In this document: one piece after another, positions 16,221-53,648 of the stretch
Position numbering within the stretch: the first letter of the stretch is position 1
Layout of the letters: every line of letters begins with the position of its first letter
Source: Methanolobus psychrotolerans
GTDB lineage: Archaea > Halobacteriota > Methanosarcinia > Methanosarcinales > Methanosarcinaceae
Direction of reading: 5' to 3'
Assembly: GCF_002243045.1 (NCBI RefSeq)
Contig: NZ_MBKP01000017.1
Location: 1 to 64,000 of the forward strand
DNA: 64,000 bases
The notes under the pieces: generated by a model
Seen by the model: only the letters and a program-made list of their open reading frames with translations
Databases searched by the model: none
Told to the model about the DNA's origin: nothing
Position numbers and translations under genes: made by a program

Positions 16221-17336
16221 ATGAACCCTATTATTCCGGATGACATCATTGAACGTGCCTACGCAGGTAAAACTACAAGGGAAGACGCGCTTTTCCTTTT
16301 AAAGGTGCCGCCTTTCAAACTTTTCGAGTTTGCTGATAGATTGCGCTATGAGACCGTAGGCGATACTGTTACTTACGTAGTCAACCGTAATATAAACTTT
16401 ACAAACCGATGTGTTGGAACATGTGGCTTCTGCGCATTCAAAAATAATAGTGGATATGTACTGGACATTCCGAAAATACTTGAAAAGGTAAAAGAAGCAG
16501 AAAGTCTTGGTGCCACAGAAGTTTGTATTCAGGGAGGATTACTTCCTGAAGTAGACATCAATTTTTACACAGACATAATAAGAGCAGTGAAAACTGAATT
16601 CCCACACATCCATACGCATGCATTCTCCCCCATGGAAGTGTATCATGCTGCAAGGCAGAGTGATATAACGATAGGAGAAGCACTGATGCACCTCAAAGAT
16701 GCAGGGCTTGATACAATGCCAGGAACTGCTGCGGAGATTCTTTCTGACAGGGTGAGGGACATCATCTGCCCCAACAAGCTCAAAACCGACGAATGGGTGG
16801 ATGTCATAACACAGGCTCACAGAGCGGGGATTAACACTACTGCCACCATCATGTATGGACACATTGAAACGATTGAAGAACGTATCGATCACATTATGCT
16901 CATAAGGGAGATACAGAAAAAGACAGGCGGTTTCCTTGAATTTGTCCCATTGACCTTTATGCCCTACAATAACAGAGTAGGCGATGAAATGATAAAGGCT
17001 GGAAGATATGCCACCCCTGGTATAGAAGATTTGCAATTGTATGCCCTTGCACGCATCATACTTAACACCCACATAAAGAATATCCAGGCAAGTTGGGTGA
17101 AGCTTGGGAAGAAACTTGCCCAGGTTGCACTTTACTGCGGGGTCAATGACCTTGGAGGAACCTTGATGGAAGAAAAAATATCCAGCTCAGCAGGTTCTAC
17201 AAATGGTCAATTCATGTCCGCACAGGAATTGGAATGGTTTATCACTTCTTCAGGAAGACAAGCACTTCAAAGAAATACAATATATAAACCAATCATCAAT
17301 ACCAATCCGGCACAGATGAAACTTAGAATTGCCTGA
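16221..17336 (+). CDS. cofH: 5-amino-6-(D-ribitylamino)uracil-tyrosine transferase, CofH (copy 1)
   Basis: A 371-aa radical SAM protein. CVGTCGFC (C64, C68, C71) lies after a ~60-residue N-terminal helical region, as in CofH and menaquinone-type MqnE/MqnC relatives. The 'LGKKLAQVALYCGVNDLGGTLMEE' block near residue 295 is family-typical. It attaches the tyrosine-derived fragment to the ribityl-uracil before CofG closes the ring. GGAGG is placed 6 nt before ATG 16221. The C-terminal 25 residues differ most from copy 2. Confidence 0.93.
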   Translation: MNPIIPDDIIERAYAGKTTREDALFLLKVPPFKLFEFADRLRYETVGDTVTYVVNRNINFTNRCVGTCGFCAFKNNSGYVLDIPKILEKVKEAESLGATEVCIQGGLLPEVDINFYTDIIRAVKTEFPHIHTHAFSPMEVYHAARQSDITIGEALMHLKDAGLDTMPGTAAEILSDRVRDIICPNKLKTDEWVDVITQAHRAGINTTATIMYGHIETIEERIDHIMLIREIQKKTGGFLEFVPLTFMPYNNRVGDEMIKAGRYATPGIEDLQLYALARIILNTHIKNIQASWVKLGKKLAQVALYCGVNDLGGTLMEEKISSSAGSTNGQFMSAQELEWFITSSGRQALQRNTIYKPIINTNPAQMKLRIA

Positions 17337-49789: not shown

Positions 49790-50980
49790 TTAATGCATAT
49801 GCTTATCAAGTCTAATCGGAAGCTGAGTTCCTTCTGGGATACTCCGGATATATTTACTCCTGAATTCAGGGTTGCGCATCATGCAATATTCTGCAGAACA
49901 TTTGTAGGCTTCATGCCGACCCAGCCGTTCCCAGATTGCAGCAAGTTTTTCTTCACGAATATTCCCGAATGACAGAGGAGTATATGCACAGGGAAGAATA
50001 TCACCACCTGCAGTTGCATGCATCCACCTTCTTCCTGCAAAGCAACCAAACTGATCAGGACCCATGAAATGCGGAAATGCAGTGACCCTTGGACCATCCT
50101 CTTTCTTATTCATTGATTTCTGGAACTTACCAAGGTACTCGACATCCTTTGCAGTTATAACCTCATCCTCATGACCCATCCAGCGACCCACAGCTATAAT
50201 CTCATATATGGACATTTCCTGCATACCCATATCAGTTGCAAAATTGTAGAACTCATCAAGATCATCGATATTATCCGGAGAAACCACAACGAAAAGATCG
50301 GCAAGAATACCAGCATTGGATATAGACTTTATACCATTTACAGTGTCCTTGAAAGCACCATCCCGGCCTCTTACACGATCATGCTCCCTCTCATACGGAC
50401 TGTCCAGACTCATGTGAGCGGCAAAAAGTCCTGCTGCTTTCAAATCCGTTGCCCTTTTCTCATTCAGGCCAAAACCGGATGTGAAACATGTTGCAATTGC
50501 ACGGCTTTTATCCACTTTTGCAACCATTTCCTCAAGGTCTTTACGAAGCATAGTCTCCCCCCCATCAAAGGAGATATGATATGAACCAATATCAATTGCC
50601 TGTTGTATTGTACAGTTAATCTCATCAAATCCCAGTATAGGCTCTGCCACAATGTCAGCTGCACCGCAGTGAATACAATTGTTGGGACACCTCGTAGTTA
50701 TACCAATGGAAAACTGATCAGGAATCCTCTTTTTAAGAATAGCTGAAACCTGTGCACTGATCATCCTGTTGAATACATCACCGGGCATCGGAGGAGTCCA
50801 TGTTGAAAATATAATATTGTCCTCATCTGCATGGATAGGTTTTTCTTCCTGAAAAATCTTGTTGATGCGTTTTATAATAGGTTTTGCAACAGGAGATAAA
50901 GGACCTTCTGCATCAAGGACCACTTTCCCATTTTCAGTGCCTGCATTTACTTTAATTACCGATTTATCGTAAACCCTCAT
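49790..50980 (-). CDS. Radical SAM enzyme with C-terminal auxiliary-cluster cysteines, substrate unknown
   Basis: A 396-aa protein. After a ~90-residue N-terminal domain comes the SAM-cluster motif CPNNCIHC (C98, C102, C105), then 'GSYHISFDGGETMLRKDLEE' (the GGE SAM-binding motif). The C-terminal third has GCFAG, GGDILPCAYTPLSFGNI and KCSAEYC, as in SPASM/twitch domains that bind extra [4Fe-4S] clusters. It is the last gene of ccmE-prenyl synthase-rSAM. I do not know its reaction; placement next to a long-chain prenyl synthase in a cytochrome-containing methanogen makes methanophenazine synthesis a reasonable hypothesis. It is not a good match to AhbC, whose cluster motif lies nearer the N-terminus. 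Confidence 0.8.
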   Translation of the reverse strand: MRVYDKSVIKVNAGTENGKVVLDAEGPLSPVAKPIIKRINKIFQEEKPIHADEDNIIFSTWTPPMPGDVFNRMISAQVSAILKKRIPDQFSIGITTRCPNNCIHCGAADIVAEPILGFDEINCTIQQAIDIGSYHISFDGGETMLRKDLEEMVAKVDKSRAIATCFTSGFGLNEKRATDLKAAGLFAAHMSLDSPYEREHDRVRGRDGAFKDTVNGIKSISNAGILADLFVVVSPDNIDDLDEFYNFATDMGMQEMSIYEIIAVGRWMGHEDEVITAKDVEYLGKFQKSMNKKEDGPRVTAFPHFMGPDQFGCFAGRRWMHATAGGDILPCAYTPLSFGNIREEKLAAIWERLGRHEAYKCSAEYCMMRNPEFRSKYIRSIPEGTQLPIRLDKHMH

Positions 50981-51005
50981 AAAGTCACCTAATAATTTAA
51001 TTATG

Positions 51006-51875
51006 TTAAAAAATATCGTCCGGAAGCATATCGACCGTAATAAGATCAGTTACAATCTCCAGTTTATCCTTTGCATTTGAACTAGGAAACTGAGAAAGGA
51101 TAGCTTTAGCATTCTGTACGCAAAGAAGGACTTGATTTAATGTTTTTTCCACAGCAGCATCATGTCCCATGGCCCTCCTGTATATAAGGGGCAATGTAAC
51201 AGACTCATATGTGGAACTTTTATCTTCAAGCTTGTTAAGATATTCAAGAAGATCATCAACGATCTGATAAGCATTGCCCACATACTCACCAAATAATCTT
51301 AGCTTCAAAGCTATCTCTTCGTCGGCACCAGCAACATATGCACCAATCGCAGCACTCGCAGCAAAAAGAGAGCCGGTTTTCTTACTGATACACTCAAAAT
51401 AATTTCGTTCTCTGAACTCTTCACTTACACTGGAAATGTCAATGGTCTCTCCTTCAGCCATGTACATACCAGCCCTTCCAAATTCATTAACAGCATTATT
51501 GCCATATCCGGAAATTAGGGAAATTGCTTTGGATATTAAAAAATCTCCGCAAAGTATCGCTGCTGGAATACCATATTTTTTATGAGCTGATTCCACACCC
51601 CTGCGCATAAGCCCCCCATCAAGTACATCATCATGTATCAGTGAAGCAGAATGAATAAACTCAATAGCAAGTGCAGCCTTGATACTGCTTTCAGAATTCC
51701 CTCCGCACATTTCCGTACATAATACGAGCATAACGGGCCTGATATTCTTACCACCGGAACTGCATATATGCAGAAGCATCTTCTTCATATGGGAACGGTC
51801 ATCCATAGAGTGGACCATCTCATCTTTAGCATTTCTGATAAGTTGGTATTCTTCCAGATCTTCTATTTCTATCAT
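51006..51875 (-). CDS. Trans-prenyl diphosphate synthase, probably long-chain (C25 or more)
   Basis: A 289-aa all-helical isoprenyl synthase. The first Asp-rich motif is DDVLD (82-86) and the second DDLLE (around 216-220, with Glu where Asp is usual). The fifth residue before the first motif is Ala77 and the fourth Ser78; small residues there usually allow products longer than C20. Methanophenazine has a C25 prenyl chain, and a geranylfarnesyl diphosphate synthase is known from Methanosarcina mazei, so this is the likely function. It lies 12 bp after ccmE and 25 bp before the radical SAM gene. Confidence 0.82.
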   Translation of the reverse strand: MIEIEDLEEYQLIRNAKDEMVHSMDDRSHMKKMLLHICSSGGKNIRPVMLVLCTEMCGGNSESSIKAALAIEFIHSASLIHDDVLDGGLMRRGVESAHKKYGIPAAILCGDFLISKAISLISGYGNNAVNEFGRAGMYMAEGETIDISSVSEEFRERNYFECISKKTGSLFAASAAIGAYVAGADEEIALKLRLFGEYVGNAYQIVDDLLEYLNKLEDKSSTYESVTLPLIYRRAMGHDAAVEKTLNQVLLCVQNAKAILSQFPSSNAKDKLEIVTDLITVDMLPDDIF

Positions 51876-51887
51876 ATATCCATCCGA

Positions 51888-52268
51888 TCATTCTGAGTAC
51901 TTCGAAGGACAGCTCATCACTATCTGGTTCGCTTCAATCACGCCCCCATACACCATTTTACCACCTATGCTAATACTCTGGCCTTCTACGAGATTAACTG
52001 GAAGAGAACCAGTATATTTCACATTCAGTTCAAAAGAGGGTTCTTCAAGATCCTGAAGCACAAAAGAAGTTCCTTCTATAGATATCTCCAGGGTTCCGTT
52101 CTTGACCACGCCCATTGTATTAACATCATGCCCTACATACCGGTCCGAATTTTGTGAAAGTTCCGATATCATAGGATAACCTTGTGAAAGGTCTACATTC
52201 CAGAGACCTACAAAACCAACAATGGCAATGAAAGCAACTGCAAGAATTGTTTTTTGTTTTTTATCCAT
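51888..52268 (-). CDS. ccmE: Cytochrome c maturation protein CcmE-like (CxxxY type)
   Basis: A 126-aa protein with an N-terminal membrane anchor (~8-24, ILAVAFIAIVGFVGLW) and an OB-fold domain outside the membrane (~40-118). At the end is C120-PSK-Y124, the CxxxY haem-binding motif that replaces HxxxY in archaeal and some bacterial CcmE proteins. It carries haem to apocytochrome c. GAGGTG lies 6 nt before the ATG. Other ccm genes are not in the window. The haem biosynthesis operon starts divergently 325 bp away. Confidence 0.88.
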   Translation of the reverse strand: MDKKQKTILAVAFIAIVGFVGLWNVDLSQGYPMISELSQNSDRYVGHDVNTMGVVKNGTLEISIEGTSFVLQDLEEPSFELNVKYTGSLPVNLVEGQSISIGGKMVYGGVIEANQIVMSCPSKYSE

Positions 52269-52592: not shown

Positions 52593-53648
52593 ATGGTTAA
52601 TATGGTAAAACCTCCAAGACTCATCGCCTGGGAAACAACAGCCGGATGCAACCTTTCCTGCAAGCATTGCAGAGGTTCATCAACTGAGAAAAAACCCGAA
52701 GGCGAACTTACAACTGAAGAAGCACTTCATTTTATAGATGAAATTAAGGAAATCGGAAACCCTATCCTTATACTGAGTGGTGGTGAGCCACTGGTAAGGA
52801 ATGACATATTCGATCTTGCGAAATATGCCACTGAAAAGGGACTCCGTGTAGCTATGGCCACCAACGGAACACTTGTAACATCCCAAATGGCGGAGAAGAT
52901 CAAAAGTGCAGGCATACAAAGAGTCAGTATCAGCCTTGACGGCTCAAGTCCTGAAACCCATGATGATTTCCGTTGCATGCCTGGAGCATTCAAGGGTGCA
53001 ATTTCAGGTATAGAGAACCTGAAAAGTGCAGGAATAAGCTTTCAGATAAATCCTACCATCACAAAACGCACGATTGAAGAAATTCCTGCCATACTTGAAA
53101 TGGCAAAGGATCTCGGTTCTGATGCACTTCACATTTTTCTGCTTGTCCCCACCGGAAGAGGCAAGGAACTGGAAAATGAGGAGATACCACCAGTAGAATA
53201 CGAGAGGATACTCAATTGGTTCTATGACAGACAAAAGGATGCAGGAATCCAGCTCAAAGCAACCTGTGCACCACATTACTTCAGAATAATGCGCCAGAGA
53301 GCAGAAAAAGAAGGCGTTGAGATCAGCGTAAAAACACATGGTTATGAGGCAATGACAAAAGGTTGCCTTGGAGGAACCGGATTTTGTTTTGTTTCAAGTA
53401 CCGGAGATGTTTTTCCATGCGGTTACCTTCCTGTGCTGGCCGGAAACATTAAAGAACAGAGTTTTAAGGATATATGGGAGAACTCTAAGGTATTCAATGA
53501 CCTGCGTGATGTTTCAAAACTAAAAGGAAAATGTGGGAGATGCGAATACAATACAGTATGCGGAGGATGTCGCGCACGAGCCTATGCTGCCACGGGAGAT
53601 TATCTTGAGGAAGAGCCCTACTGTATATACATACCTAAAAAACAGTGA
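52593..53648 (+). CDS. ahbD: Haem b synthase AhbD (radical SAM, alternative haem pathway)
   Basis: A 351-aa radical SAM/SPASM protein. 'PRLIAWETTAGCNLSCKHCRG' holds the SAM cluster (C19, C23, C26), and SGGEPLVRNDIFDLA the SAM-binding GGEP. The C-terminal cysteines (KGCLGGTGFCF, FPCGYL, KCGRCEYNTVCGGC) hold a second cluster. It converts the two propionates of Fe-coproporphyrin III to vinyl groups, giving haem b. The neighbouring ahbA, ahbB and hem genes confirm the pathway. The start is ATG 52593 or ATG 52602; neither has a ribosome binding site, matching a leaderless mRNA. Confidence 0.93.
   Translation: MVNMVKPPRLIAWETTAGCNLSCKHCRGSSTEKKPEGELTTEEALHFIDEIKEIGNPILILSGGEPLVRNDIFDLAKYATEKGLRVAMATNGTLVTSQMAEKIKSAGIQRVSISLDGSSPETHDDFRCMPGAFKGAISGIENLKSAGISFQINPTITKRTIEEIPAILEMAKDLGSDALHIFLLVPTGRGKELENEEIPPVEYERILNWFYDRQKDAGIQLKATCAPHYFRIMRQRAEKEGVEISVKTHGYEAMTKGCLGGTGFCFVSSTGDVFPCGYLPVLAGNIKEQSFKDIWENSKVFNDLRDVSKLKGKCGRCEYNTVCGGCRARAYAATGDYLEEEPYCIYIPKKQ

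Follow-up and report, generated by a model that had tools for sequence, protein, structure and literature searches.

Our analysis revealed a radical SAM enzyme, rSAM-A, that is probably a methanophenazine enzyme and that would, together with its paralogues rSAM-B and rSAM-C, build or modify the redox-active head group of this carrier. Judged from sequence, we give this reading a probability of roughly 0.7. Methanogens with cytochromes use methanophenazine, known since 1998, as a quinone-like electron carrier in the membrane; to our knowledge only the side-chain synthase has been assigned among its enzymes so far. The parts of the reading differ in strength. It is very likely that rSAM-A and rSAM-B act in methanophenazine synthesis, and likely, to a lesser degree, that the head group is what they act on; assembly of the tricyclic ring itself by these enzymes is a tentative proposal. 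rSAM-C probably joins A and B in making or modifying the phenazine head group. In papers of 2018 and 2021 the methanophenazine pathway was called unidentified or not deciphered (PMC6315138, PMC8546582), and PhzF was reported not to be conserved among methanophenazine organisms (PMC5244752). Our searches of open-licence PMC text yielded no paper which tied a radical SAM enzyme to this pathway.

The preliminary description of the window (the whole stretch of 64,000 nucleotides that was analysed, from a host genome of 3.16 Mb) had claimed a tight unit of ccmE, a prenyl synthase and a radical SAM gene. All three open reading frames were recovered on the minus strand, separated by 12 bp (ccmE-GFPS) and 25 bp (GFPS-rSAM-A) according to the ORF coordinates. 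The features of the unit were as follows:

49790..50980, minus strand: rSAM-A, 396 aa; radical SAM enzyme, with a conserved extension at its N-terminus and a twitch/SPASM-like domain at its C-terminus; candidate for the head-group steps of methanophenazine synthesis
51006..51875, minus strand: GFPS, 289 aa; (all-E) geranylfarnesyl-type prenyl diphosphate synthase, predicted maker of the C25 chain
51888..52268, minus strand: ccmE, 126 aa; haem chaperone with a CXXXY motif; operon passenger outside the proposed pathway
50666..50689, minus strand: CX3CX2C motif (C98, C102, C105) of the radical SAM [4Fe-4S] cluster of rSAM-A; invariant in 54 family members
49883..50044, minus strand: auxiliary-cluster cysteines C313, C331 and C366 of rSAM-A (CX12GX4C and a further Cys); unchanged in all 54 family members aligned, with a SPASM Pfam match
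51618..51647, minus strand: GFPS chain-length region, A77 and S78 with the first Asp-rich motif DDVLD; from the translation and the orthologue alignment

A divergent haem pathway was located 5' of ccmE (AhbD at 52593-53648, then AhbA, AhbB and further hem genes), and an A-type ATP synthase operon started 206 bp downstream of the rSAM-A unit. The neighbourhood of MM_0789 with ATP synthase and haem genes was pointed out earlier in Methanohalophilus mahii (PMC3017947). Since GFPS was found immediately 5' of rSAM-A in 85 of the 85 genomes of the phylum sample having both genes (f1, Methanosarcinaceae, and f6, Methanotrichaceae; distances of 5-373 bp by match coordinates), this arrangement is far beyond chance. 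In ANME-2, rSAM-A did not adjoin GFPS in the named loci. All five ANME-2-like genomes of the phylum sample had rSAM-A, and no GFPS match was obtained in these five at 1e-60. The ccmE-GFPS operon was described in M. acetivorans (MA4149; PMC9084895), and the window has the same ccmE-GFPS pair; in the available part of that paper, 'radical SAM' occurred 0 times and neither the radical SAM gene nor the UbiA-GGR-rSAM-B locus (see below) was mentioned. The ccmE-GFPS operon and the side-chain role of GFPS are already published, while the rSAM gene and the results built on it appear to be new.

MM_0789 of M. mazei makes geranylfarnesyl diphosphate for methanophenazine (Ogawa 2010, via PMC3017947 and PMC8546582). 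The window GFPS belongs to the same (all-E) geranylfarnesyl diphosphate synthase family (NF040627) and holds a conserved position beside rSAM-A. It exceeded the Pfam cut-off for polyprenyl_synt, and GFPS_Meth (NF040627) was its best NCBIfam match. However, its score of 333.6 bits was under the curated cut-off of 600, and the C25 product of the window protein is a prediction; orthologues at the same position in g13 (taken as Methanosarcina) exceeded this cut-off in 15 genomes. The Ala/Ser which had been noticed before the first Asp-rich motif was confirmed: A77 and S78 occupy positions -5 and -4 before DDVLD, and A/S was present there in 20 of 20 orthologues. The nearest PDB sequence was 3ipi (290 bits). 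The second Asp-rich motif of GFPS was DDxxE instead of DDxxD, in the window (51006-51875) and in 19 relatives. GFPS was also considered as a phyletic marker and rejected: NF040627 at 1e-60 matched genomes without rSAM-A as well (f9, f14), so the family alone is no marker of methanophenazine.

From its neighbours ccmE and ahb/hem, rSAM-A could be taken for a protein of haem or cytochrome c biogenesis. In 24 named loci the unit began with ccmE, in four named ANME-2a loci ccmE stood directly 5' of rSAM-A, and the best NCBIfam match of rSAM-A was AhbD haem b synthase (TIGR04545). However, this match reached 114.2 bits against a cut-off of 500, and it is the divergent neighbouring gene at 52593-53648, with 596.8 bits, that encodes the true AhbD. 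ccmE itself was over the Pfam cut-off for CcmE (PF03100; 49.1 bits vs 24.6), and its translation contained CPSKY, a form of the CXXXY haem motif which PMC9084895 gives as the archaeal CcmE motif. CcmE was missing in 36 genomes with the rSAM family and present in 37 genomes lacking this family. The CcmE-negative, family-positive genomes included g6 and g8 (gut-clade-like; about 1.3-1.8 Mb, no ccmE, rSAM-A kept) and 21 of the 31 g13 genomes. M. barkeri Fusaro was likewise described as lacking any ccm genes (PMC9084895), and the gut clade conserves energy only via VhtACG-methanophenazine-HdrDE (PMC11362671). Because the two distributions disagree, and because of M. barkeri Fusaro and the gut clade, rSAM-A tracks the carrier and not CcmE. 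With many rSAM-A genomes lacking ccmE and many ccmE genomes lacking rSAM-A, ccmE falls outside the proposed function. The three-gene candidate methanophenazine locus which had been suggested stood in its rSAM-A part, through the phylogenetic profile and the second UbiA-GGR-rSAM-B locus, and fell in its ccmE part. On the family scores and the ccmE distribution we rejected a haem or cytochrome c role of rSAM-A, which is highly improbable.

rSAM-A exceeded the Pfam cut-offs for Radical_SAM (PF04055; 69.6 bits vs 29.5) and SPASM (PF13186; 31.2 bits vs 21.5, residues 313-352). The extra-cluster cysteines reported in the preliminary description held up in the alignment: C313, C331 and C366 were invariant in all 54 aligned family members, as were C98, C102 and C105, and the six were kept in the clades of A, B and C alike. 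The full seven-cysteine SPASM motif for two auxiliary clusters was not found, only C313, C331 and C366 being invariant beyond CX3CX2C; the three fit a single, twitch-like auxiliary cluster. Among the NCBIfam matches listed, rSAM-A was under the curated cut-offs of 25 of 25 families; it scored 96.2 against a cut-off of 381 for PqqE and 73.0 against 325 for MoaA. Its AlphaFold model was confident (pLDDT 89.4, pTM 0.91) and aligned with SkfB (Z 24.3), PqqE, SuiB, BlsE and MoaA over residues ~60-380. rSAM-A resembles these SPASM/twitch enzymes in fold (Z 20-24), in CX3CX2C and in the auxiliary cysteine set. However, it differs from them in its low identity (~15-21%), in scoring below every NCBIfam equivalog cut-off, in an N-terminal region of its own, where P63, P66 and F70 are invariant, and in having only three invariant auxiliary cysteines. 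The N-terminal 86 residues had no PDB match below 1e-3 and gave a low-confidence model (pLDDT 75, pTM 0.54).

Peptides, nucleotides or sugars are the substrates of the closest solved folds, and peptide maturases (SkfB with Z 24.3, PqqE, SuiB) are the closest solved structures. The rSAMs could thus be RiPP-type or protein-modifying maturases, which would act either on a peptide that gives rise to the head group or on a protein working with methanophenazine. There is a precedent in PqqE, which makes a redox cofactor from a peptide. However, the gaps within the two operons (12, 25, 27 and 3 bp) leave no space for a peptide gene, no convincing small ORF was found beside the rSAM-A unit, and the N-terminal part of rSAM-A, in its low-confidence model, had no recognition-domain match. 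We consider a maturase role improbable.

The same genome encodes two close paralogues of rSAM-A, B (42%) and C (35%). In the maximum-likelihood tree A, B and C each formed a well-supported clade, with A sister to B. rSAM-B is the last gene of a unit in which a UbiA prenyltransferase and a geranylgeranyl-reductase-family flavoprotein (GGR) precede it, with gaps of 27 and 3 bp. This order was found in 25 of 29 named B loci, and the UbiA-GGR pair was kept together in ANME-2a/b. In Methanotrichaceae, rSAM-B adjoins hisI instead of UbiA. There, hisI (by eye, phosphoribosyl-AMP cyclohydrolase-like) runs into the start of rSAM-B (L171:4650-6123, L174:8779-10247). In ANME-2c-like genomes (family f4; L195-L197), UbiA-B directly adjoins an ATP-synthase subunit C gene, and an ATP synthase operon also neighbours rSAM-A of the window. 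rSAM-C occupies a third locus apart from the GFPS and UbiA-GGR loci; in the window's genome it lies directly 3' of a KaiC-like ATPase gene (L175:9246-11234).

The UbiA-GGR-rSAM-B locus, which was invisible to the preliminary description, strengthens the case for methanophenazine. In methanophenazine, an ether bond joins a phenazine to a C25 chain in which one isoprene unit is saturated, and its synthesis therefore needs a synthase for C25 chains, a prenyltransferase and a reductase of prenyl groups. UbiA-B was present in 17 of 17 sampled positives, among them G028 which showed only a paralogue match in the rSAM-A search, and in 0 of 8 sampled negatives (menaquinone-type, f9 and f14 genomes). 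The prenyl enzymes at both loci could also mean that rSAM-A and rSAM-B act not on the ring but on the isoprenoid chain or on a membrane lipid, like Tes/GDGT-MAS or hydroxylating enzymes, with UbiA and GGR in lipid synthesis; GDGT-MAS was among the structural neighbours of rSAM-A (Z 18.0). However, core lipid genes are expected to be universal, which does not agree with the absence of UbiA-B from all eight of these negatives. The B-locus UbiA also scored far under the DGGGP synthase cut-offs, and the distribution mirrors the electron carrier and not the lipid type. A role in chain or lipid modification is unlikely.

The distribution of the rSAM family was further compared with that of menaquinone, for which MqnC over its cut-off served as the marker of futalosine synthesis. 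In 186 Methanosarcinales genomes, the rSAM family and MqnC never occurred together (0 genomes); 146 had the family without MqnC, 33 had MqnC without the family and 7 had neither. rSAM-A itself was found in 138 of the 146, and the other eight, mostly incomplete, had paralogues only. The family-negative genomes were f5 genera g25/g26, f2 and one incomplete MAG. We took g25/g26 as Methanoperedens-like (cytochrome c maturation genes present), and a menaquinone pathway was reported for such organisms (PMC5244752). Family-level names of the numbered genomes are inferred, f6 being Methanotrichaceae through loci L094 and L096. The phylogenetic profile proposed in the preliminary description came out as predicted: rSAM-A occurred in Methanosarcinaceae, ANME-2a/b/c and Methanotrichaceae, and was absent from the menaquinone-type families of the same order and from the sampled Methanomicrobiales-like and Methanocellales-like families. 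Methanophenazine in ANME-2 is presumed. Given the GFPS adjacency, the co-occurrence with the carrier and the complete separation from menaquinone, rSAM-A and its sister gene are strong candidates for the ring-building enzymes.

Some single matches called for care. MqnC-like matches under the cut-off in nearly all Methanosarcinaceae were rejected as futalosine enzymes, the window copy at 16272-17291 being CofH of F420 synthesis. This CofH scores 373 bits to MqnC and could pass for a menaquinone gene in loose searches. The single rSAM-B of G252 was not accepted as genuine: its 12.3-kb contig was treated as likely misbinning, which is not proven, and the genome lacks rSAM-A, carries four MCR-like copies and has an MqnC match above the cut-off. 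G074 (L198; f5, g27; 67% complete) was the sole f5 genome with rSAM-A; it has UbiA-GGR-rSAM-B and no MqnC match, and is possibly a case of carrier switch inside a menaquinone-type family.

The profile mostly follows one class and therefore comprises few independent events of gain or loss; as the taxa are not independent, no more than one to three losses may account for the negative genomes of the order. With positives essentially from one class, adjacency and distribution could reflect mere shared ancestry of Methanosarcinia, the rSAM role being unrelated. However, the GFPS linkage lasts across two families, the linkage of the paralogue to UbiA-GGR is a separate one, and within the order precisely the menaquinone families lack these rSAMs. 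Clusters of other family members with GGR and a UbiA-like gene also occur outside the class, and we see very little chance that shared ancestry is the whole explanation. These clusters (f11, f15, f17, f21; L158-L168) bring together three members of the rSAM family, one of them of C-type, proteins resembling GGR, UbiA (divergent) and NMT1 (cytosolic), and another radical SAM protein, whose best match was the PTO1314 family, under cut-off. The genes mostly form one cluster and are split over two places in f15. MqnC was over cut-off in none of the tested genomes of these families, and an MCR match was obtained only in G203 of f15. UbiA-B was absent from G203, which lies outside the class and has other family rSAMs, neither A nor B. 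Though not orthologues of A or B, these clusters support a general link of the rSAM family to prenylated compounds and may encode the synthesis of a prenylated electron carrier that is as yet undescribed. The NMT1-like gene was left out of the proposed methanophenazine pathway because it has no close homologue in methanophenazine genomes.

In the proposed mechanism, GFPS would supply the C25 chain, the B-locus UbiA would attach it, and the B-locus GGR-type flavoenzyme would saturate one isoprene unit. Each rSAM would cleave SAM at the CX3CX2C [4Fe-4S] cluster and abstract hydrogen from, or add a radical to, an aromatic precursor. The auxiliary cluster (C313, C331, C366) may then take up or relay an electron, so that a C-N or C-C bond could be formed oxidatively, or a ring closed, with neither O2 nor the bacterial PhzA-G route. 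Among twitch and SPASM enzymes, an auxiliary cluster often serves as electron acceptor in oxidative coupling. More speculatively, three paralogous twitch-type rSAMs might assemble the phenazine nucleus by an O2-independent route unlike bacterial PhzA-G, and the related three-rSAM clusters (GGR, UbiA-like, NMT1-like) in other archaea might lead to further prenylated carriers. The compact candidate set (GFPS, UbiA-B, GGR-B, rSAM-A, rSAM-B and perhaps rSAM-C) is directly testable in the genetically tractable M. acetivorans. It would serve as a genomic marker of methanophenazine in uncultured archaea, and would point to a phenazine route without the bacterial enzymes. The proposed pathway is similar to lipoquinone pathways, such as that of futalosine menaquinone (MqnA-E, MqnP, GGR-type MenJ), in its head-group radical SAM steps, UbiA-type prenyl transfer and GGR-type chain reduction. 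However, it differs from them in that no MqnC over cut-off was present in rSAM-A genomes and in that the expected product is a phenazine with an ether-linked chain.
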